From: Acidobacteriota bacterium
GTDB taxonomy: Bacteria; Acidobacteriota; Terriglobia; Terriglobales; Acidobacteriaceae
Assembly (NCBI GenBank): GCA_016196065.1
Contig: JACPYL010000015.1
Coordinates: 1 to 64,000 of the forward strand
Length of the DNA stretch: 64,000 nucleotides
Reading direction: 5' to 3'
The notes below the pieces were generated by a model. That model was not told where the DNA came from, did no database searches, and worked only from the letters and a program-made list of their open reading frames with translations. The stretch's first letter is position 1. The number at the start of each line of letters is the position of its first letter. Shown here piece by piece: positions 4,079-18,029 of the stretch. The position numbers and the translations under genes are program-made.

Positions 4079-6319
<2,241 letters not shown>

Positions 6320-6430
6320 TCAGTTTACAGGATGCTCGGTTTTGTTTCTGTGAGGCAGCGACAGAGACTCAAGACGTTCGGTCAGCGGCCGAAAGTCGTC
6401 CGGCTGTTGCCGCGATTCCACTTTACATCG

Positions 6431-6527
6431 ATGAACCATTGCGAGCGTGAGTAAAGTCTAAAGAAAATAAATCATAGGTAAAAGACCAATGTGTCGATAT
6501 GTGAAATAGAATAAACCTATGGTTCAT
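6431..6527. promoter_or_regulatory. katG-oxyR control region with OxyR-like operator
   Basis: The divergent gap (6272-6553) is AT-rich near oxyR. An ATAG-N7-CTAT element at 6506-6520 matches the half-site form of the known OxyR box (ATAG-N7-CTAT). A second ATAG lies at 6474. Two further inverted repeats overlap it: CATAGGT (6473-6479) with ACCTATG (6515-6521), and ATGAACCAT (6431-6439) with ATGGTTCAT (6519-6527). TAGAAT at 6507-6512 could be the oxyR -10. Inference: OxyR binds here to activate katG and control itself. The second half-site at the canonical 22-base spacing is not well conserved. Confidence 0.55.
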
Positions 6528-6553
6528 GTCGAGAGCTTACGAGTCGCCTAGCC

Positions 6554-7447
6554 ATGGATATCCGCCAGTTGCGTTATTTTTCTGCCATCGTCCGGACCGG
6601 TAGCTTTACCCGCGCCGCCGCTGAACTAGGCATCAGCCAGCCTTCGCTCTCGCAGCAAATTCGTATCCTTGAGCAAAAAATCGGTAACCCGCTCTTCGAA
6701 CGACTGGGGCGATCCGTCCGCTTGACCGCCCACGGCGAAGCGCTCCGTAAGCCCGCCGCCGACATTCTGCAACAGGTCGCGGAAACGGAGTGTTCTCTCG
6801 ATCAGCTTCAGCGAGGAGTGCGCGGAAAGCTTCGCGTCGGAGTGATTCCCACCATCATGCCGTATTTGATCGCGCCCCGCGTCGGCGCTTTTGCCGCCCG
6901 CTTCCCGGATGTGGATCTGCAATTCACCGAAGACACTACACCCCATCTCATCGAACAGTTGCAGTCCGGGGATCTCGATCTGGCCGTATCGGGTCTCCCT
7001 GTTCGAAACCCCGACATCGTGTGCAGCGAACTGACTCGCGAGCCGCTTTTTCTGGCCGTGTCAGAGAAGCATCCATTGGCGGATGAAACGGCCATCGACC
7101 TGGAGGATTTGCAGGGGGAACGATTTCTTCTCCTCAAAGAAGGCCACTGCCTGCGCGACGATGTGCTCCGAACCTGCTTACGGGGCCGCAAGGAACTTCA
7201 TCGCGTCTTTGAGACCGATCAACTCGCCAGCATCTTTCAGTTCGTGCGCTCCGGCTTCGGATTGACCGTTGTCCCTGCGATGACTGCGTCGCATGCAACG
7301 GGATGCCAGCTTATCCCGCTTCGTGGCGGCAGCTTTCGTCGTATCGGATACCTGCGAGCTCGCCGCCATCTCGTCAGCCGTCCCATGCGTGAATTTGCGG
7401 CGTGGCTGCGGACGATTGTGGAGACCAAAACGCTTCCAAAGGGATAG
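6554..7447 (+). CDS. oxyR: Peroxide-sensing LysR-type regulator OxyR
   Basis: A LysR-family regulator of 297 residues: an N-terminal winged helix-turn-helix (about 1-60, SFTRAAAELGISQPSLSQQI) and a substrate-binding-like domain from about residue 90. The redox motif EGHCLRDDVLRTC places cysteines at exactly residues 199 and 208, the two that form the H2O2-sensing disulfide in E. coli OxyR. This, with divergent katG, makes OxyR much more likely than a generic LysR protein. Translation starts at ATG 6554, in the usual position for MDIRQLRYF. It most likely activates katG and binds the shared intergenic region. Confidence 0.93.
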   Translation: MDIRQLRYFSAIVRTGSFTRAAAELGISQPSLSQQIRILEQKIGNPLFERLGRSVRLTAHGEALRKPAADILQQVAETECSLDQLQRGVRGKLRVGVIPTIMPYLIAPRVGAFAARFPDVDLQFTEDTTPHLIEQLQSGDLDLAVSGLPVRNPDIVCSELTREPLFLAVSEKHPLADETAIDLEDLQGERFLLLKEGHCLRDDVLRTCLRGRKELHRVFETDQLASIFQFVRSGFGLTVVPAMTASHATGCQLIPLRGGSFRRIGYLRARRHLVSRPMREFAAWLRTIVETKTLPKG

Positions 7448-9994: not shown

Positions 9995-10858
9995 TTGCCC
10001 TCTTGGTTCTTTGTAACCGACCTCCACGGAGCGAGCAGTCGGTATGAAACACTCCTGTCGCGAGTCATATCGGAGCATCCGGCCGCGGTCTTCATCGGCG
10101 GAGATCTGCTGCCGCGAGCTTTTTCCCTGGGCGGATCTCTCGCTGCACAACATGGGGATTTTATTGGGGAATATCTCGTGCCTGAATTCTCACGGGCCCG
10201 CGAGAAACTCGGTAGTCTGTACCCTTCGGTGTTCCTCATCCTTGGCAACGATGATCCCCGTATCGAAGAGGGTGTCATTGAACAGGCCGCCCAACGGGGC
10301 TTATGGCAGCACATCCACGATCGAAAATCCGTTCAAGACCGATTCGACATCTATGGCTACGCGATGGTGCCGCCTACGCCCTTTCTACTCAAGGACTGGG
10401 AAAGATACGATGTCTCACGTTACGTCCCACCGGGCTGCGTTTCACCAGAGGAAGGGCTCCGCAGTCTGCCTTGTTCCGAGAGCGCGGTGAAATGGGGAAC
10501 AATTCAGAAAGACCTGGCAAATCTGACGGGCGAGGTTTCTCTCGATCGCGCGATATTTCTCTTTCACACACCTCCATACGAGACGCCGCTCGATCGGGCG
10601 GCGCTGGACGGCCGCATGTTCGAGCACGTCCCCATCGACGTGCACGTCGGCAGCATTGCCGTGCAGCGCTTCATCGGAGAGCGACAGCCATTGCTCACTC
10701 TGCACGGCCACGTACATGAGTCGACTCGTCTGACCGGCAAGTGGAAGATCAAGATGGGCCGCACCGTGTGCATCAATGGAGCGCACGACGGGCCAGAACT
10801 TGCCTTGGTCCGTTTCGACCCGGAATCTCCAGAGGATGCGACCCGCGAACTCCTCTAG
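9995..10858 (+). CDS. Calcineurin-like metallophosphoesterase
   Basis: A cytoplasmic metallophosphoesterase of 287 residues. The metal-binding blocks appear in order: DLHG (residues 9-12), GGD (about 35-37), GNDD, a histidine block LFHTPP, and GHVHES near the C-terminus. The family hydrolyses phosphomono- or diesters using two metals; the substrate here cannot be read. The start is TTG at 9995, directly after an in-frame TAA, and it is the only start that keeps the first metal motif. Its stop codon shares the palindrome CTAG with the stop of the convergent gene. Confidence 0.82.
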   Translation: MPSWFFVTDLHGASSRYETLLSRVISEHPAAVFIGGDLLPRAFSLGGSLAAQHGDFIGEYLVPEFSRAREKLGSLYPSVFLILGNDDPRIEEGVIEQAAQRGLWQHIHDRKSVQDRFDIYGYAMVPPTPFLLKDWERYDVSRYVPPGCVSPEEGLRSLPCSESAVKWGTIQKDLANLTGEVSLDRAIFLFHTPPYETPLDRAALDGRMFEHVPIDVHVGSIAVQRFIGERQPLLTLHGHVHESTRLTGKWKIKMGRTVCINGAHDGPELALVRFDPESPEDATRELL

Positions 10859-13800
10859 ACGCCCAGATCTGCTTTCAGGGGAAACTTCCGGGCGGGATCG
10901 GTGATGGCGTCAATCTTCACGGCAAAACTGCTTCGCTCGGCAATGTCCTTGTCCGTAACCAGGTGAACGTCGAGGAGTCCGTCGGAACGGTACCCCGTTC
11001 GCAAGAAGTTTATTTCCCCCAGGCAGCGGCTCCAGCCCTCAAGCCAGAGTTGGAGTTCTCCTTCTTGTCCTTCTGTACCTTGAAAGTGCAGTAGGAGATC
11101 AATATCACTGGCTGGACCTGCAGTCGCGTTTTTCGTGCTGCCGATCAGGTAGAACGCCTTCACCCCAAACTTCGTACCGTCAAGTTGTGCCGCGATGCGT
11201 TGCGCCATGCGGAAACGCCAGCGCCAGTGCTCTTCACCGCTCCGGTCGAGAGACTCTACGCGGGGTGCGATCGATCCATCTCTCTGCTGGGCCGGTGCAA
11301 GAAATGCCACTGCCTGGTCCAGATCGGCATTCATGACCACTCGCAGAACCATTCCGTGCGTGTCCCTGGGCACGTCGATGACGTGGAGAACGTCGGCAAG
11401 GTGCGCGAAATCCGGCATCATCTCGGCCAGAACATTGTCCGACCTTCGGAAAAAAGGTTCGTTGAATACTGCGCTCGGATCGTCCGGGTAAAGGGGCAAG
11501 TAGCGGATCGAAGCCTCGACCAGATCCTGAAAGAAATGAGTTCCGAAGGAGAGATCGGGTAAGTAGTTGCCTTTCTGCCGGGCAACTTCCACCAGCATCG
11601 CGGCATTGTTAATGTCGGAGTAGGTAACGGGAACGCCGAGTCGGATATCACCTCGGCTTCCCCAACGACCTGGCCCGATCAAAATGAACTGTCGTTTGGG
11701 CAAGAGTTTGTTCAGACGCCCCACGGCGCGGCCAATCTCCCGCATCGTGGTCTCGTCCGACAGTTGGCTATAGCCTTCCAGATCCACATAGACGATGTGA
11801 GTGATCTCCGGCACTTTGCCGTTCGATACGTAGCGGTTCGCAGTGAAGATGACCTTATCCGATGGCAGGTTTTGCGGGATCGGCACGGGCACCATACCTG
11901 CCCCGTAGCTCTGCGGACGGCATTGGAGAAGATAGAAGTCTGCGCCATCGTAAGCGAATTCCAGATCGACCGCGCCCCCCAGCTTCGACTGCAGCAGGTT
12001 CAGCATCTCTCGAATACAAGCCACGAAAGGCGTGTTCCGTATCAACCCTTCAAAGGTGAAAACAACGTCGCGTTTTTGGAAATCGGGGACGGGACCAACC
12101 GGCTGCTCGATCCGATCATGGTCCACCAGGGAAACCAGTTGGCGGACCTGAGGATACTGCGCTCCGCACTGGCGAAGTAGCTCGATCGCATCGACCGTTT
12201 CAAAAGAGTTGGTCTCGAGATTGACTACGTCCACCCGCTTTGGGGAGTACTTGAGCACCTCGTCCAGCGTGATGTTGATTCGCAAGTTGGGCTGCCCCGG
12301 TGCGATGAGTACCGGATAATCATCGGCCATGCGATCTACGGCGCGCGTACCGAGTCCCGGCACCATGCGAATCAGGCCGTCGGTACGCTTGATGCGAGCG
12401 GACCAACGGAATTCATTGTTACTGAAAGCCACCCCGGAACAAGCCGGCAAAAAGTACTTGCCCACCTGCTGACCCACAACTTCCTGGATCATGATCCCCA
12501 TCTCTTCGTGCATGTCGAGCAGTCCGCGTTCGGCGCGATACTCGGTCGGGTCCGGTCCGAAGATGGAGGCATAGACCTCGGCAACCGCATCCATGAGGGC
12601 CGAAAGCCTCTCTTCCTTGGAGCCACAGTTCCCTAAGAAGAGGCTCTTATATTTTCCCGAGAAGGCAGAGCCAGGCCGGTCTTCGAGCAGGCTGGAACTG
12701 CGCACGATGAGAGGCCGATCGCCCAGATCCTCCAGTGCCAGCGCCATCCCTTTCGACAACTCCGAGGGAAAGGAAGATCGTTTGAAGAGGGCCACCACAT
12801 GGGGGTACTCCTGCCGCACCTGGTCGATCTCCATGTACTTGCGGTTCAGCACATCTTCCAGATCGTTGTGATGGACAAAGCTGAGGATGCAGTCTGAAGT
12901 CATGTACCAGGTCTTCGGCACCTTCACCTCGCCCAGCAACTTCGAGGACTCCGGCGACTTTTCGATAATCTTCTTGGCCAGAAACAGTCCCGCGCTCTTG
13001 CCTCCCAGTTTGCCGTGACAGCGCGGCGGGAAAATGATCTTGCTCAGCAGATCGTAAAAATCTTCGATCCGAACAAATTGCTTGGCGACGTTGATGAAAT
13101 CAAGACTCTCGGAGAAAAAGCGCCGGATCAGCGACACCCGTAGCCCCTTCTGCGTCGAGCGGGAGAGTTCACTCTCTTTTACCGAAGTGTGTCGATAACG
13201 CTCGAGGGCCTCAATAATTTCGCCGAGCGGGGTGTCCTGGTGTTCAAGGGCGCTGACAAGGAAGCTGCTTTTCTCTTCTTTGATCCAGGTAGTGACGAGA
13301 TCCAGTATCTCGTCTTCGCTGAGATGCTGGTCTGCAATCTGGAACGCTTCGTTCGTAAGATCGGGGAATTTGTGGTGGGCGTCCCTCACCTGTGGCCGGT
13401 TGTCCTGCCACGCCACCCGCGCGCCGCTCAGTGCTCCTCCATGTTGGAGCAGTTCGCGGGCTTCCGGGAATCCGCTCCAGTTGAGATGGTTAATGAGTTT
13501 TCGCGAGATGCGCTGCAGCAGGACGGGATCGGTGTCGCGCAGAAATTCGACTACCACTCGCCACTCGCCCTTGTCCGTGGCCTCGCCATCTTCCGCGGCT
13601 GCCCACGATTCGAACGCGGTGCGCAAATGCCGCTGTGTGATTGCGCTGCCGATCCGTTCGGCGATGGTCCGAATAAGTTGGCCCTCTTCCTTGAGAAATT
13701 GGCTGCCTTCGACTGGCGGCACTGCGTCCCGGTAGTAAACCTCTACGACTCCGGCGGCTTGATCCTGGACAACGATTTCCGCGCGCTGTACCCACTCGGT

Positions 13801-14034
13801 TGCTTTGAAGTCCGCGCACTCGAAGACTTCGCCATCGAAGATGATTCGAGCCTGGCAAATTTCGGGATATTGCCAGCCCGTGGGCAGGATCTCGATGATT
13901 TGCCTGAGAATGTCCTCGAGCGGCAACCCGCTCTGGTTGAGCGCTTCTCCAACCCTATACAGGCAGTTCAGTTCCTTGGCACGCTCCTGCAGGGCGTGAA
14001 GAACCGTACCGAGGTGAGTCTCATCCTTCTTCAT
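10855..14034 (-). CDS. PEP-synthase/PPDK-like ATP-grasp protein with N-terminal sensor-like region and C-terminal nucleotidyltransferase
   Basis: A 1059-residue multidomain protein. Residues 1-140 resemble a GAF/sensor module (ELNCLYRVGEALNQSG onwards); 150-330 is a helical region. Residues 340-710 match the pyruvate-phosphate-dikinase ATP-binding domain: GKLGGKSAGLFLA (341-353), IVRSSSLLEDRPGSAFSG (443-460), MIQEVVG (515-521), YLLQCRP (701-707). The swivelling phosphohistidine domain and PEP barrel of true PEP synthase are missing. Instead, 780-855 holds ILIGPGRWGSRGDIRLG and GTHFFQDLVEA, which are shared with the upstream gene product. Residues 960-1059 form a minimal nucleotidyltransferase: GS at 965-966, Asp977-Ile-Asp979 and Asp1022. 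Its ATG overlaps the upstream stop as ATGA, so translation is coupled; ATG 14034 is therefore preferred over the longer frame. Function unknown; see the findings. Confidence 0.8.
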   Translation of the reverse strand: MKKDETHLGTVLHALQERAKELNCLYRVGEALNQSGLPLEDILRQIIEILPTGWQYPEICQARIIFDGEVFECADFKATEWVQRAEIVVQDQAAGVVEVYYRDAVPPVEGSQFLKEEGQLIRTIAERIGSAITQRHLRTAFESWAAAEDGEATDKGEWRVVVEFLRDTDPVLLQRISRKLINHLNWSGFPEARELLQHGGALSGARVAWQDNRPQVRDAHHKFPDLTNEAFQIADQHLSEDEILDLVTTWIKEEKSSFLVSALEHQDTPLGEIIEALERYRHTSVKESELSRSTQKGLRVSLIRRFFSESLDFINVAKQFVRIEDFYDLLSKIIFPPRCHGKLGGKSAGLFLAKKIIEKSPESSKLLGEVKVPKTWYMTSDCILSFVHHNDLEDVLNRKYMEIDQVRQEYPHVVALFKRSSFPSELSKGMALALEDLGDRPLIVRSSSLLEDRPGSAFSGKYKSLFLGNCGSKEERLSALMDAVAEVYASIFGPDPTEYRAERGLLDMHEEMGIMIQEVVGQQVGKYFLPACSGVAFSNNEFRWSARIKRTDGLIRMVPGLGTRAVDRMADDYPVLIAPGQPNLRINITLDEVLKYSPKRVDVVNLETNSFETVDAIELLRQCGAQYPQVRQLVSLVDHDRIEQPVGPVPDFQKRDVVFTFEGLIRNTPFVACIREMLNLLQSKLGGAVDLEFAYDGADFYLLQCRPQSYGAGMVPVPIPQNLPSDKVIFTANRYVSNGKVPEITHIVYVDLEGYSQLSDETTMREIGRAVGRLNKLLPKRQFILIGPGRWGSRGDIRLGVPVTYSDINNAAMLVEVARQKGNYLPDLSFGTHFFQDLVEASIRYLPLYPDDPSAVFNEPFFRRSDNVLAEMMPDFAHLADVLHVIDVPRDTHGMVLRVVMNADLDQAVAFLAPAQQRDGSIAPRVESLDRSGEEHWRWRFRMAQRIAAQLDGTKFGVKAFYLIGSTKNATAGPASDIDLLLHFQGTEGQEGELQLWLEGWSRCLGEINFLRTGYRSDGLLDVHLVTDKDIAERSSFAVKIDAITDPARKFPLKADLGV

Positions 14035-15815
14035 TGTTTCCCACGAGCTGTTTCCTCGTTTCCTTTCAGTACCACTCCCCGCGAGTTGCGGCCATCGACT
14101 CGAACGATGAGTGGCCGAGTCGGTCTCACATGGCGAACCAGGTCGGTCTCGTGAATCACCGGCTGATGGTTCAGCCAGTCCCAATCAATACCGAGGGCCG
14201 CGTCGTGCCGCACCGTGAAATAGCTGGCGTGAAAACTGGCCAGATTGTGAAAGAAATGCGATCCCTGGCTCGGTTCCACATCCATCTCCGGCAGCGTAGA
14301 TTCAACCAGAACACGGGCGCCGGAAATCTGGCTCCAATCTGATGGTATCCCCAGCGAGGCATGGGAACTTCCAATGCGTCCGAAGCCAATCAGCACGTAC
14401 GGTCGCCCCTGGTCCACTAGTTCCCGATTTATCTTTCCCAGCTCTTCTGCGATGGCCTGCGTGTGCAGGGAAGAAAAGTGCTCCGGCCGCGCGTAGACAA
14501 TATCCTGGACGTCGGTGGCCACGCCATTACCCAGGGCCATATCGGAGGAGATCACGGCATCAGGGCTATGAAGATCCTCGACGCTGACTTCGATGAGTTG
14601 GTCCGAAACAGCGATGGGTCGCACCTGCAGGTACCCGAATCGAACGCGCGGCTGCTCCCCTCTGCGTTGATGAATCGTGACCGCAAATTCGATTTCCACC
14701 TTGGCGCCGGTGACTCGCTCAGCCGAAGAAATCATGGCTTGAATCAGGGCATTCAGGGGCAGGCGTTCCCCCACGAGCAACGGAGCGAAGTTGAGAATTC
14801 TCGGTCCACTCGTGCCGATCCCGGGAACCACACGGTCACGACTTGTGTCATACGTGGAAGCGAGATACTCGAGAACCTCGTCTCCTTCGGCATCAGTCAG
14901 GTTGGCGCGGACCAGATATTCAACTTCGTTGACCGGATCATAGGCCGGGGGCTTGCCCATGTTTACTGCCCAGAATTGAGTCTGGCTATTTCGCAGGAGC
15001 TGTCGTATCGAGCTGAAGGGTGGCCCCTTCTTTGGATAGGCCGGCGAATAGGTCCAAGCGAGGTCGCCGTCAACAATGGTCTTTCCCAGGCCGAGAGCCA
15101 GGCTGACGACACCATCTTCGGGTCGAGCCGGGGAGTTTGCGTAGAAGTTGTAGGAACGTGCGACACCAGAAATATCCGGGTAGTAGCGATCACCGTGTCG
15201 GTGCCCTACCACCTCCTGGATGATTACCGCCATCTTCTCACTGCTCGGGGATTGGCCTGTTGCACGAATGTAGCTCCGCGCTTCTCGGAAATATGTCGAA
15301 GCGTAGACGAACTTGATGGCCTCGACCAAGCGGCGGAACCGGCTATCTGCGTCGAACTGGTTATTCGGGATCATCTTCGTCCCGTAAACACCGGCGAACG
15401 GCTGGTCCCGGGCGTCTTCCAGTAAACTCGATGACCGGATCGCCAGAGGAGACTTCACCTGCTCGATGAGTGCGCGAAGATCTCCCAGCAGCTCAACGGG
15501 CAGGTCGCCCTGCTGGAAGGCATGGCCGATCCGATCGTCCGACATCTGTTCGATGGGGAGATCTGCGAGATGATTCTGGGGAATAAAGGCGTCAAAGAAA
15601 TCGGTAGCGATCACCGCCATGGTGGGTACGTCGACATCGAAATCAGGAAAATGTCCAAAGTCAAAATCTCTTGTCAGGGCGTCCTTGATGATGGCAAGTC
15701 CGGTCGCCTTTCCGCCCAACGATCCCGTACCAATGCGAGTGAAACGAAAGGCGCCATCCAGGAAAATCCGGTCAAATGGCGGTAGATCGGCAGCCAATAC
15801 TTCCGCAGGAATCAT
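14031..15815 (-). CDS. PEP-synthase/PPDK-like ATP-grasp protein lacking the phosphohistidine domain
   Basis: A 594-residue cytoplasmic protein. Residues 30-400 match the ATP-binding domain of PEP synthase/PPDK: GSLGGKATGLAIIKD (31-45), LAIRSSSLLEDARDQPFAG (124-142), VIIQEVVG (197-204) and FGYLQVRPI (393-401). As in its neighbour, the mobile phosphohistidine domain and PEP/pyruvate barrel are absent. The last ~200 residues carry the block YVLIGFGRIGSSHASLG (473-489) and GSHFFHNLASFHASYF (518-533), shared with the next protein, so the two are paralogues. GGAGGT precedes ATG 15815. It lies 63 bases after gdhA on the same strand and overlaps the next gene by four bases, giving a likely three-gene operon. 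Confidence 0.8.
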   Translation of the reverse strand: MIPAEVLAADLPPFDRIFLDGAFRFTRIGTGSLGGKATGLAIIKDALTRDFDFGHFPDFDVDVPTMAVIATDFFDAFIPQNHLADLPIEQMSDDRIGHAFQQGDLPVELLGDLRALIEQVKSPLAIRSSSLLEDARDQPFAGVYGTKMIPNNQFDADSRFRRLVEAIKFVYASTYFREARSYIRATGQSPSSEKMAVIIQEVVGHRHGDRYYPDISGVARSYNFYANSPARPEDGVVSLALGLGKTIVDGDLAWTYSPAYPKKGPPFSSIRQLLRNSQTQFWAVNMGKPPAYDPVNEVEYLVRANLTDAEGDEVLEYLASTYDTSRDRVVPGIGTSGPRILNFAPLLVGERLPLNALIQAMISSAERVTGAKVEIEFAVTIHQRRGEQPRVRFGYLQVRPIAVSDQLIEVSVEDLHSPDAVISSDMALGNGVATDVQDIVYARPEHFSSLHTQAIAEELGKINRELVDQGRPYVLIGFGRIGSSHASLGIPSDWSQISGARVLVESTLPEMDVEPSQGSHFFHNLASFHASYFTVRHDAALGIDWDWLNHQPVIHETDLVRHVRPTRPLIVRVDGRNSRGVVLKGNEETARGKQ

Positions 15816-15878
15816 CGGTGACCTCCGGCCCCGCGATGAAGCAAACAAGTTCCTGGTCCGCGGTCAGCAACTACTGCA

Positions 15879-17246
15879 CTAAAGCCAGCCGCGATCGTGG
15901 CAGGCGCGGGCCACACGGCCAATTGCGATCGCATAGGCTGCATCGCGCATGTGAAGCTTCTCGCGTCGAGCAAGTTCCGAGACGGCGAAGTACGCGGACG
16001 TCATCTTCAGGTCGAGTTTGCCCAGGACCTCGTCCTTCTCCCAGAAGTAGTTCATATTGCTCTGCACCTGTTCGAAGTAGCTGCAGGTGACTCCGCCGGC
16101 GTTTGCCAGGAAATCGGGGATGACCAGAATGCCGCGTTCCTTGATCCGCGCATCCGCCTCAGGTGTAGTCGGTCCATTCGCACCCTCAGCGATAATTCGC
16201 ACGCTCGGACTGATTCGGTCGACATTGTCACCGGTGATCTGGTTTTCCATGGCAGCGGGAATAAGGACTTCCACATCTTGTTCGATCCACGCCTCGCCGG
16301 GCAACAGTTCATATCCAAGTTCCTGCGCTTTTCCTTTGTCAATGCCCCCAAAGCGATCGGCTATCGATACCAACTGGTCGAGGTTAATACCATCACGCTT
16401 GCGATATGTGTAGGAACATTGGTCGGCTTGGTCCCAACATGAAACCGTAACCACACGGCCGCCCAGGCGCTGATACAACTCGATGGCATAGTGGGCCACG
16501 TTGCCGAAGCCCTGCACACTGGCGCGCGTATTTTCGGGCCGGATGCTCAAGTCCTTCAGGGCCTCACGCAGGGTGAAGATCACTCCATAGCCAGTCGCTT
16601 CGGTGCGTCCCAGGGAGCCCCCGAGTCCCACTGGTTTGCCAGTGATGAAACCCGGGAATCGACCGCCATGGATTTGTTCGAACTCATCCAGCATCCACAG
16701 CATGTGTTGCGAGTTCGTCATGATGTCAGGCGCCGGGACGTCGACAACCGGCCCCACGTTCCGGGCCACCTGGCGAACCCATCCGCGACAGATCTGCTCC
16801 TGCTCGCGCATGCTGAGATTGTGGGGATCGCAAATGACTCCCCCCTTGGCTCCGCCCAGTGGAATGTCGACAACGGCACACTTCCATGTCATCCACATGG
16901 CAAGGGCGCGGACGGTGTCAATGGTTTCCTGGGGGTGGAAGCGAATCCCCCCTTTTCCCGGCCCACGAGCATCATTGTGCTGCACGCGGAAGCCGCGAAA
17001 TACTTTCACTTGCCCGTCATCCATTCGCACGGGAATCGCGAACTGATATTCGCGCAGGGGATAGCGGAGGAGGTCCCGCGTCGGAGGATCCAGGCCCAAG
17101 TACTCGGCCACTTTGTCGAACTGGGCTTGTGCTATCTGAAATGAATTGAAGGTCTTCACGGATCTTTTCCCAGGTAGAGCGCCGCGGGTATCTTCTTTAG
17201 AATCAGTAACCATCTGCTTTGAATCAAGCAGCACGTTTCCCGACAT
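15879..17246 (-). CDS. gdhA: Glutamate dehydrogenase (Glu/Leu/Phe/Val family)
   Basis: A 455-residue dehydrogenase interconverting glutamate and 2-oxoglutarate plus ammonium. Substrate-site and catalytic residues are visible: GGIRFHP (99-105), Lys122 (WKCAVVD), Lys134 (PLGGAKGG) and Asp174 (PAPDIM). The Rossmann domain has GFGNVA (246-251). The true start is ATG 17246, preceded by GGAGGA at good spacing; the open frame upstream to 17801 is a chance extension across the divergent promoter and prx gene. It is first in the run with the two ATP-grasp genes, suggesting that they act on nitrogen or carbon flux, possibly on GDH itself (inference). Confidence 0.93.
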   Translation of the reverse strand: MSGNVLLDSKQMVTDSKEDTRGALPGKRSVKTFNSFQIAQAQFDKVAEYLGLDPPTRDLLRYPLREYQFAIPVRMDDGQVKVFRGFRVQHNDARGPGKGGIRFHPQETIDTVRALAMWMTWKCAVVDIPLGGAKGGVICDPHNLSMREQEQICRGWVRQVARNVGPVVDVPAPDIMTNSQHMLWMLDEFEQIHGGRFPGFITGKPVGLGGSLGRTEATGYGVIFTLREALKDLSIRPENTRASVQGFGNVAHYAIELYQRLGGRVVTVSCWDQADQCSYTYRKRDGINLDQLVSIADRFGGIDKGKAQELGYELLPGEAWIEQDVEVLIPAAMENQITGDNVDRISPSVRIIAEGANGPTTPEADARIKERGILVIPDFLANAGGVTCSYFEQVQSNMNYFWEKDEVLGKLDLKMTSAYFAVSELARREKLHMRDAAYAIAIGRVARACHDRGWL

Positions 17247-17495
17247 GGTTGTCCTCCGCAGATGCCATCTCCAGTCTGTCATCAACCGACCGCGATACGA
17301 AGTGACCGGGCGCACGACGTGTGGTGATGATCGAACGTTGGATCTGAGGAACTGCGCTTTCCGGTGGCTGGGGTCAGTTCTCCTTGCCATTCGCGCCCCG
17401 ATGCGAATGGACGTCGATGCTTTCGTTAGAATAATGTGGATGTACGTGGGTGTGAATAAATCCAAAGATTGAGCCGTTATCGGCATGAGGTTTTT

Positions 17496-18029
17496 ATGAT
17501 CCGTTGGCTTATTGCTGGTGTTGTTCTTCTCGTGGCGGTGATGGTTACGTCGATGGTGGTGTTCGCTGGGTCTCCTCCTGTGGTGGGCAGTTTGGCACCT
17601 GAGTTCACGCTGAACTCGCAAGAAGGCAAAGCCGTTAGCCTCAAGGATTTCCATGGCTCGTGGGTGGTGTTGTACTTCTATCCCAAGGACTTCACCAGCG
17701 GCTGCACGGTCGAGGCCCACAATTTCCAGCGCGATCAGGCGCAATATCAACAGAAGAGTGCGGTCGTACTGGGCGTAAGCGTGGACAGCGCCGATTCTCA
17801 CAAGCAGTTTTGCACGAAGGAAGGCTTGAACTTCAAACTGCTTGCGGATACCGAATATAAAGTGTCGAACGCGTACGGATCATTGACCAACATGGGTGTG
17901 GTGAAGTTCGCTGCGCGGCATACCTTCATCATCAACCCTGATGGCAAGATTGCGCGGGCTTTTACTGAAGTGAATCCCAACAAACATAGCGAAGAGGTCC
18001 TGGCCGCCCTCACGGAACTGCAAAAGTAG
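17496..18029 (+). CDS. Exported or membrane-anchored PrxQ/Bcp-type peroxiredoxin
   Basis: A thiol peroxidase of 177 residues with an N-terminal hydrophobic segment (IAGVVLLVAVMVTSMVVFAG), so it acts outside the cytoplasmic membrane or is anchored to it. Peroxidatic Cys70 lies in FTSGCTVEAHNF. The residue five positions on, where many PrxQ proteins have the resolving cysteine, is His75. Another cysteine at 104 (KQFCTKEG, spacing 34) fits the alternative alpha3-type resolving position. ATG 17496 is chosen over TTG 17469 because it starts the signal segment. hemH follows 30 bases later, so they are likely cotranscribed. The divergent gap to gdhA (17247-17495) holds the promoters but I could not place boxes confidently. 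Confidence 0.85.
   Translation: MIRWLIAGVVLLVAVMVTSMVVFAGSPPVVGSLAPEFTLNSQEGKAVSLKDFHGSWVVLYFYPKDFTSGCTVEAHNFQRDQAQYQQKSAVVLGVSVDSADSHKQFCTKEGLNFKLLADTEYKVSNAYGSLTNMGVVKFAARHTFIINPDGKIARAFTEVNPNKHSEEVLAALTELQK

Follow-up and report, generated by a model that had tools for sequence, protein, structure and literature searches.

ATP-grasp proteins linked to gdhA as putative signal-controlled modifiers of glutamate dehydrogenase

Introduction

Glutamate dehydrogenase (GDH) builds ammonia into glutamate and is a main entry of ammonia into metabolism. In actinobacteria, GDH is controlled by the PknG-GarA system; the FHA protein GarA, like the PII proteins, exerts its control by binding, without covalent change of the target. 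GlnE and GlnD control glutamine synthetase and PII. For most bacteria, to our knowledge, no dedicated protein regulator of GDH is known. The present study concerns a locus in a stretch of 64,000 nucleotides (hereafter, the window) from contig JACPYL010000015.1 of an Acidobacteriota bacterium (assembly GCA_016196065.1), in which gdhA is followed by the genes of two ATP-grasp proteins, termed B and C here. We propose that these gdhA-linked proteins control GDH by modification, a reading to which we assign a probability of roughly 0.6.

The ATP-grasp half of B and C plainly belongs to the dikinase superfamily. Its GGK, RSS, E and Q.R residues are those of the ATP-grasp domain of phosphoenolpyruvate (PEP) synthase, pyruvate phosphate dikinase (PPDK) and rifampin phosphotransferase. 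However, where PEP synthase and PPDK have a phosphohistidine domain (PF00391) and a PEP barrel, B and C share a different domain with a conserved histidine (the His domain), and C has in addition a GAF-like front and a nucleotidyltransferase. The family model of rifampin phosphotransferase gave 33.5 bits with C and 12.9 bits with B, against a cut-off of 999. HpeI of Rhodococcus (9goj), a PPDK_N-type chain, is a Foldseek match to C (E 8.1e-9), but its 330 residues leave no space for the additional domains that C has. We take HpeI to be part of an alkylphenol phosphorylation enzyme, one that does not concern GDH.

GlnE and GlnD have the nucleotidyltransferase fold in common with C, and B and C would work alike, by reversible, covalent, signal-controlled modification of an ammonia-assimilating enzyme. 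In contrast to the proposed system, GlnE and GlnD have another target enzyme and no counterpart of the ATP-grasp/His core of C. Their specific domains were not found in C, whose nucleotidyltransferase region matched PF01909, PF18765 and PF22600 only. The model of the MNT antitoxin (MntA) scored C at 17.7 bits, under its cut-off of 60, and no HEPN toxin was present among the six window proteins scanned, the neighbours of C in the window being GDH, B and the phosphoesterase. PknG-GarA is likewise a signal-switched protein regulator of GDH, as proposed for B and C, and neither a Ser/Thr kinase nor an FHA domain was found in the same six proteins. Of each of the known systems compared (PEP synthase, rifampin phosphotransferase, GlnE/GlnD, HEPN-MNT, PknG-GarA), the proteins studied here lack testable features that define it. 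We find no known kind that fits the gdhA-linked system as a whole, and its mechanism is putative.

Results

The three genes lie on the minus strand in the order gdhA, B and C. The gdhA gene (15879..17246) encodes a protein of 455 amino acids with the GDH domains PF00208/PF02812; its score against the NCBIfam model GdhA_Arch was 455.6 bits, under the model cut-off of 750. After a gap of 63 bases comes the gene of B (14031..15815; 594 amino acids), a PPDK_N ATP-grasp domain joined to the His domain. The gene of C (10855..14034; 1059 amino acids) follows with a 4-base overlap, ATGA at 14031..14034, in which B stops and C starts.

We searched 199 genomes of the window's phylum with C and with the window GDH. 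C was present in 44 of these, from 19 families; G113 and G062, with matches of 33% identity and about 300 bits, were dropped from this count. When C was set against GDHs at least 50% identical to the window's, 42 genomes had both, 2 had C only, 3 had the GDH only and 152 had neither, and the two C-only genomes carry GDH pieces at contig ends. A same-strand gdhA gene precedes C in 31 of 40 phylum loci (28 of the 34 that offer 1,500 bases or more of room), and among the other nine gdhA is the convergent neighbour of C in three (L073, L074, L075).

When named genome contigs were scanned with the alignment of C, at least 575 loci were confirmed, and the best 80 of these (the named loci) were analyzed. 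In 70 of the 80, a GDH gene is located upstream of C and shares its strand (68/73 where 1,500 bases or more of room are available), and B stands between gdhA and C in 48. The taxon labels include Acidobacteria, Ignavibacteria, Calditrichaeota, Zixiibacteriota, Planctomycetota, Spirochaetes, Myxococcota, Deltaproteobacteria, Clostridiaceae, Bacteroidales, Cloacimonetes, Gemmatimonadota, Delongbacteria and Oligosphaera, among others; nearly all of the loci are marked as metagenome bins, so that some labels are possibly wrong, and Oligosphaera ethanolica (L151) is a named strain. Chance adjacency of gdhA and C is rejected by these linkage and co-occurrence counts. The mirror-distance correlation between GDH and C was r = 0.61 over 64 loci, and none of 2000 permutations was as high, although shared species history alone could explain it.

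The closest relative of B is a protein of about 1,000 amino acids (long B), which has two receiver-type stretches before PPDK_N; B of the window has no receiver domain. The second receiver resembles that of response regulators, with the positions of the acidic pair, phospho-Asp, Ser/Thr and Lys: E177, D247, S281 and K300 were found in all of 54 aligned rows and D178 in 53. The first is without the acceptor Asp and is thus a pseudo-receiver. The ATP-site residues and the conserved histidine are kept in 54/54 rows. Within the window's phylum, an E. coli-like GDH lies within 4 kb of long B in 44 of 57 cases among the matches listed, and in 40 of these the arrangement is tandem, GDH being on the 5' side; three shorter frames (G012:C166:6765, G164:C502, G064:C120) and B-type rows were dropped from this list.

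In Bacteroidales, 130 of 149 sampled genomes have a long-B-type match (E<=1e-60, two paralogues counted). Among the matches listed, the first paralogue has a GDH within 600 bases in 24 of 106 cases and within 5 kb in 30, in tandem, divergent or convergent arrangement; G297:C46, which is a frame of 574 amino acids and has a GDH about 1.4 kb away, was dropped. The long B gene, about 2.95 kb, lies directly 3' of a gdh in the loci L234 and L235, and in Parabacteroides distasonis and Phocaeicola massiliensis it and gdhA are divergently arranged, and a second GDH lies 3.5-4.1 kb further on. The second paralogue, frequent in Bacteroidales (G310:C26, G259:C91 and others), has about 1,160 amino acids at 38-40% identity and may act on another target. 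Adjacency that recurs in varying gene orders and involves two GDH subfamilies hardly has an explanation other than a function shared with GDH. It is very likely that B and C are tied to GDH.

The domain order in C is GAF-like, helical, PPDK_N, His domain and nucleotidyltransferase. PPDK_N (PF01326, cut-off 27) was found in B (14589..15722, minus strand; 120.1-121.4 bits) as well as in C (11908..13011, minus strand; 185.1-188.4 bits). The two proteins are paralogous, B aligning to the PPDK_N domain and the following domain of C with about 28% identity. For an AlphaFold2 model of C, the protein of the window was aligned with 59 C proteins of named loci, 60 in total; the other 21 of the 80 were frameshifted, cut, stop-bearing or simply not chosen. 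The mean predicted local distance difference test score (pLDDT) of the model was 83.4 and its predicted template modelling score (pTM) 0.67. In Foldseek searches of the PDB, the middle of the model matched the ATP-binding part of rifampin phosphotransferase (5hv3, E 1.1e-14) and also PEP synthase (2ols) and PPDK. The ATP-site residues G344, G345, K346, R445, E692, Q704 and R706 of C are invariant in two alignments, of 24 and 60 rows. Neither a phosphohistidine domain nor a PEP-barrel domain (PF02896) was found by Pfam in B, in C or in the relatives scanned.

PPDK_N relatives of known function use small molecules, and the retention of the ATP-site residues in the B/C family would also suit a metabolic enzyme. 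B and C could be enzymes whose ATP-grasp domain phosphorylates a small molecule, like rifampin phosphotransferase or PEP synthase, in a pathway that shares glutamate or 2-oxoglutarate and has gdhA as a mere neighbour. We regard this as unlikely, because B and C have sensor-type domains in place of the swivelling and barrel domains. Moreover, a search for other shared neighbours in the named loci returned, beyond GDH and PPDK_N proteins, a family of about 287 amino acids (the phosphoesterase described below) as the most widely shared, in 34 of 80 loci, the next families reaching at most 11; and the partner GDH differs between the two paralogues, something that is not required of a pathway.

A sequence-only reading of this DNA had described three same-strand genes at this spacing, the last two paralogous, related to the ATP-binding domain of PEP synthase/PPDK and devoid of phosphohistidine and PEP-barrel domains, and the coordinates and Pfam results bear out each of these points. 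It had also considered a role in PEP/pyruvate flux. We dropped that role for want of swivelling and barrel domains, and by domain content B and C are not PEP synthases. The nucleotidyltransferase and the GAF-like N-terminus of C, the shared His domain and the convergent phosphoesterase-like gene had escaped it.

The His domain is a stretch of about 200 residues common to both proteins. In C (residues 712-916; 11287..11901, minus strand) it lies between the ATP-grasp domain and the nucleotidyltransferase and contains GPGRWGS and SFGTHFFQDL; in B (14034..14633, minus strand) GFGRIGS stands in place of GPGRWGS, together with SQGSHFFHN. By itself the domain had no Pfam match, even at E<=10. A separate model of the domain, built on 93 rows (60 C, 33 B), had a pLDDT of 94.7 and a pTM of 0.92, and a Foldseek search of the PDB with this model returned nothing at E<=0.001, the best match having E 0.064 and a template modelling (TM) score of 0.24 by query length. 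A profile search of PDB sequences gave four chance-level matches only. Residues invariant in the 93 rows are N775, G789, R790, G792, G800, E816, S829, G831, H833, F834 and F835 (C numbering). The B proteins L089, L135 and L136, which are without an exact G[ST]HFF, and five others were left out of this alignment; all three keep His-Phe-Phe, and in one of them G831 is replaced by Ala. Both GPGRWGS and G[ST]HFF are present in C of 120/120 loci.

In the model of the domain, H833 (codon 11536..11538, minus strand) stands at the start of a helix. This position is reminiscent of the swivelling domain of dikinases, which carries a phosphohistidine. Because of this resemblance, we take H833 as the likely phospho-acceptor, and phosphoryl transfer through H833 would most likely be the core chemistry of the system. 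As a side observation, the locus L107 (contig labelled Spartobacteria) holds at 5263-6891 (minus strand) a further protein with PPDK_N and His domains, 34-37% identical to C and convergent with it.

The N-terminal domain of C (about residues 1-140; 13615..14034, minus strand) has no Pfam match. GAF-type structures, including the NifA GAF domain (8jrc), matched the model of C weakly in Foldseek (E about 0.07-0.22), as did MNT nucleotidyltransferase structures (E 0.06-0.2). We used the Pfam match together with the lengths and the succession of elements to place the GAF-type match at the N-terminus and the MNT-type match at the C-terminus.

A GAF-like domain in C and receivers in long B would equally suit control of GDH through ATP- and signal-dependent binding, without covalent change, the ATP-grasp site serving as an ATP sensor. 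Furthermore, 39 GDH positions are conserved in 93 subfamily GDHs and the window's and differ in 20 other GDHs, and their clusters at 149-159, 176-190 and 393-399 are compatible with a docking surface. On the other hand, these subfamily-specific positions could stem from mere ancestry, and catalytic-type residues together with the histidine of the second domain are kept across phyla, beyond the needs of a sensor site. We therefore hold control by binding alone to be quite improbable.

The nucleotidyltransferase domain of C (10858..11232, minus strand) matches PF01909 at 22.2 bits, barely above the cut-off of 21. It contains GSTKNATAGPASDID and a third aspartate, D1022, which is invariant in 60 rows and which we take to be the third metal ligand of the fold. 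The metallophosphoesterase-like gene of the window (9995..10858, plus strand; 287 amino acids) is convergent with C, and the two share the palindromic stop CTAG at 10855-10858. Of 120 loci (40 from the phylum and the 80 named ones), 47 have a member of this family beside the 3' end of C, 35 convergent and 12 on the same strand. Their D9, H11, D37, N85, D86, H191, H237 and H239 are invariant in 36 rows and form metallophosphoesterase motifs; PF00149 was found in four of five members tested, and the window copy was without a match.

In the 105 loci that leave 900 bases or more of room, the phosphoesterase accompanies C in 45 of the 80 with the nucleotidyltransferase motif and in 0 of the 25 others (p 6e-8, a value inflated by shared ancestry). 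An earlier motif pattern, which wrongly required a Leu at its end, had given 30/55 against 15/50 (p 0.017), and the pattern was loosened after that count. This coupling suggests that the nucleotidyltransferase and the phosphoesterase form a writer/eraser pair. The 25 others consist of 21 loci in which the domain is absent and 4 in which it is motif-less (L046, L047, L109, L127), none of the latter with a phosphoesterase neighbour.

One could thus envisage that GDH is nucleotidylylated by C and restored by the phosphoesterase, while the ATP-grasp half merely regulates. The coupling favors such a scheme, as do the weak MNT-type fold matches and the complete motif. However, the domain is missing or motif-less in those 25 of 105 loci and absent from B, and the gdh linkage persists in loci without it, which makes this scheme the least probable of the alternatives. 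Since the nucleotidyltransferase is lacking or motif-less in that part of the family, it is not the core activity; because the gdh linkage stays, the nucleotidyltransferase and the phosphoesterase are regarded as an accessory layer.

Stand-alone proteins resembling the nucleotidyltransferase of C were also seen, in L226 (6800-7225, minus strand) and L227 (6133-6615, minus strand). One, with 53% identity, is encoded in G030, where C is without that domain, and matches of 51-54% occur also in G068 and G043. The other, with 30% identity, is encoded in G120, where two gdh genes are about 4 kb away.

The genome of the window has two further GDHs, one E. coli-like and the other 46% identical to the window GDH (G000:C10:75433-76788, G000:C27:265676-266899). 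PPDK_N occurs there only in B, in C and in one 943-amino-acid frame (G000:C10), and no long B is present. A peroxiredoxin-like gene (AhpC-TSA; 17469-18029, plus strand) and gdhA are divergent, their starts lying about 220 bases apart. A catalase-peroxidase (KatG-like) gene (4079-6271, minus strand) is divergent from a LysR/OxyR-like regulator gene (6554-7447, plus strand), both named by eye from their translations. A scan for terminator-like sites gave 7 against a shuffle mean of 6.3, and one for promoter-like sites 6 against 2.7; the result was not used. Anti-phage defence was rejected as a role, PADLOC giving weak partial matches only.

Discussion

The proteins described here combine sensor-type domains, an ATP-grasp site and a conserved histidine in a second domain with a strong genetic tie to GDH, and they have none of the known domains for a small-molecule substrate. 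Therefore, the simplest reading is that they form a signal-controlled modifier of GDH, and the module probably switches GDH on or off. We infer GDH as the target, covalent modification as the mode and H833 as the acceptor. Signals would enter through the GAF-like domain of C and, in long B, through the pseudo-receiver and the phosphorylatable receiver. ATP would be bound by PPDK_N, and the phosphoryl group would pass to the conserved histidine of the C-terminal domain rather than to the usual swivelling domain. From there it would move on to GDH, or else the phosphorylated state would act directly on GDH. The outcome would be a reversible change of GDH activity. In many lineages, the nucleotidyltransferase of C as a writer and the adjacent metallophosphoesterase as an eraser would add a second layer.

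The sequence-only reading had already suggested a regulator acting on GdhA. In favor of that suggestion, the linkage to gdhA reaches far beyond this genome, and the GAF-like and receiver domains fit a regulator. The expectation that the pair stays beside gdhA across genomes holds for C, and for B where B is present. Homologues of C do not lie mostly far from gdh; for the long B of Bacteroidales, 76 of 106 places among the matches listed have no listed GDH within 5 kb.

That last count weighs against a GDH modifier, and several further observations point the same way. The linkage evidence as such speaks for a partnership with GDH, not for regulation, and the p-values ignore shared ancestry. The His domain shows no likeness to a known phosphocarrier domain among the 50 Foldseek matches listed, and the nucleotidyltransferase is missing or without its motif in the loci counted above. 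The second long-B paralogue, among its matches listed, is near a listed GDH in 0 of 42 cases within 600 bases and in 7 of 42 within 5 kb. In the window's phylum, 24 genomes, that of the window included, have an E. coli-like GDH and no long B among the matches listed. Ten of the 80 named loci have no gdh upstream, where in none of them the contig extends for more than 2.7 kb. Of the nine such phylum loci, L045, L065 and L071 have 14.2, 8.7 and 3.2 kb upstream of C, respectively, without a GDH match. Divergent C proteins (36-43% identity) are loosely tied: in G124 the GDH is about 1.7 Mb from C, and in G003 and G013 the two are on different contigs. Such loci and distant pairs speak against the linkage of gdhA and C as a strict rule.

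Control of GDH in Bacteroides has an older history. A report of 1987 is said to describe reversible inactivation of GDH in B. fragilis. Baggio and Morrison 1996 reportedly restored activity in E. coli by a 3-kb downstream segment in trans. That work is cited in PMC4539542 under a title on trans-acting gene(s) affecting B. thetaiotaomicron GDH activity, and the passages of PMC12000641 that were covered hold nothing further on trans-acting GDH control. As far as the title tells, the system of Baggio and Morrison is a gene next to gdhA that affects GDH in trans, and long B is a gdh neighbour in part of Bacteroidales. We therefore put forward, as a proposal drawn from other Bacteroidales loci, that long B is the trans-acting GDH gene of B. 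thetaiotaomicron. No description of B/C-type proteins as GDH regulators was found among the matches listed from the open-licence PMC literature, outside which most subscription journals lie.

Taken at its fullest, our proposal is of a new class of regulator: an ATP-grasp half-dikinase with GAF/receiver inputs and a new-fold domain that carries the phosphohistidine, acting as a reversible covalent switch of GDH in many phyla, with a nucleotidyltransferase/phosphoesterase layer, and accounting for the trans-acting GDH gene of Bacteroidetes. This full form is tentative, and we would expect it to fail in some part sooner than to hold throughout. Its His domain is one that neither Pfam nor a PDB fold search assigns, and long B joins a response-regulator receiver to a dikinase-type ATP-grasp output. 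The module stands beside gdhA across many phyla and, going by the title of the old report on trans-acting control of Bacteroides GDH, is a candidate for the gene behind it.

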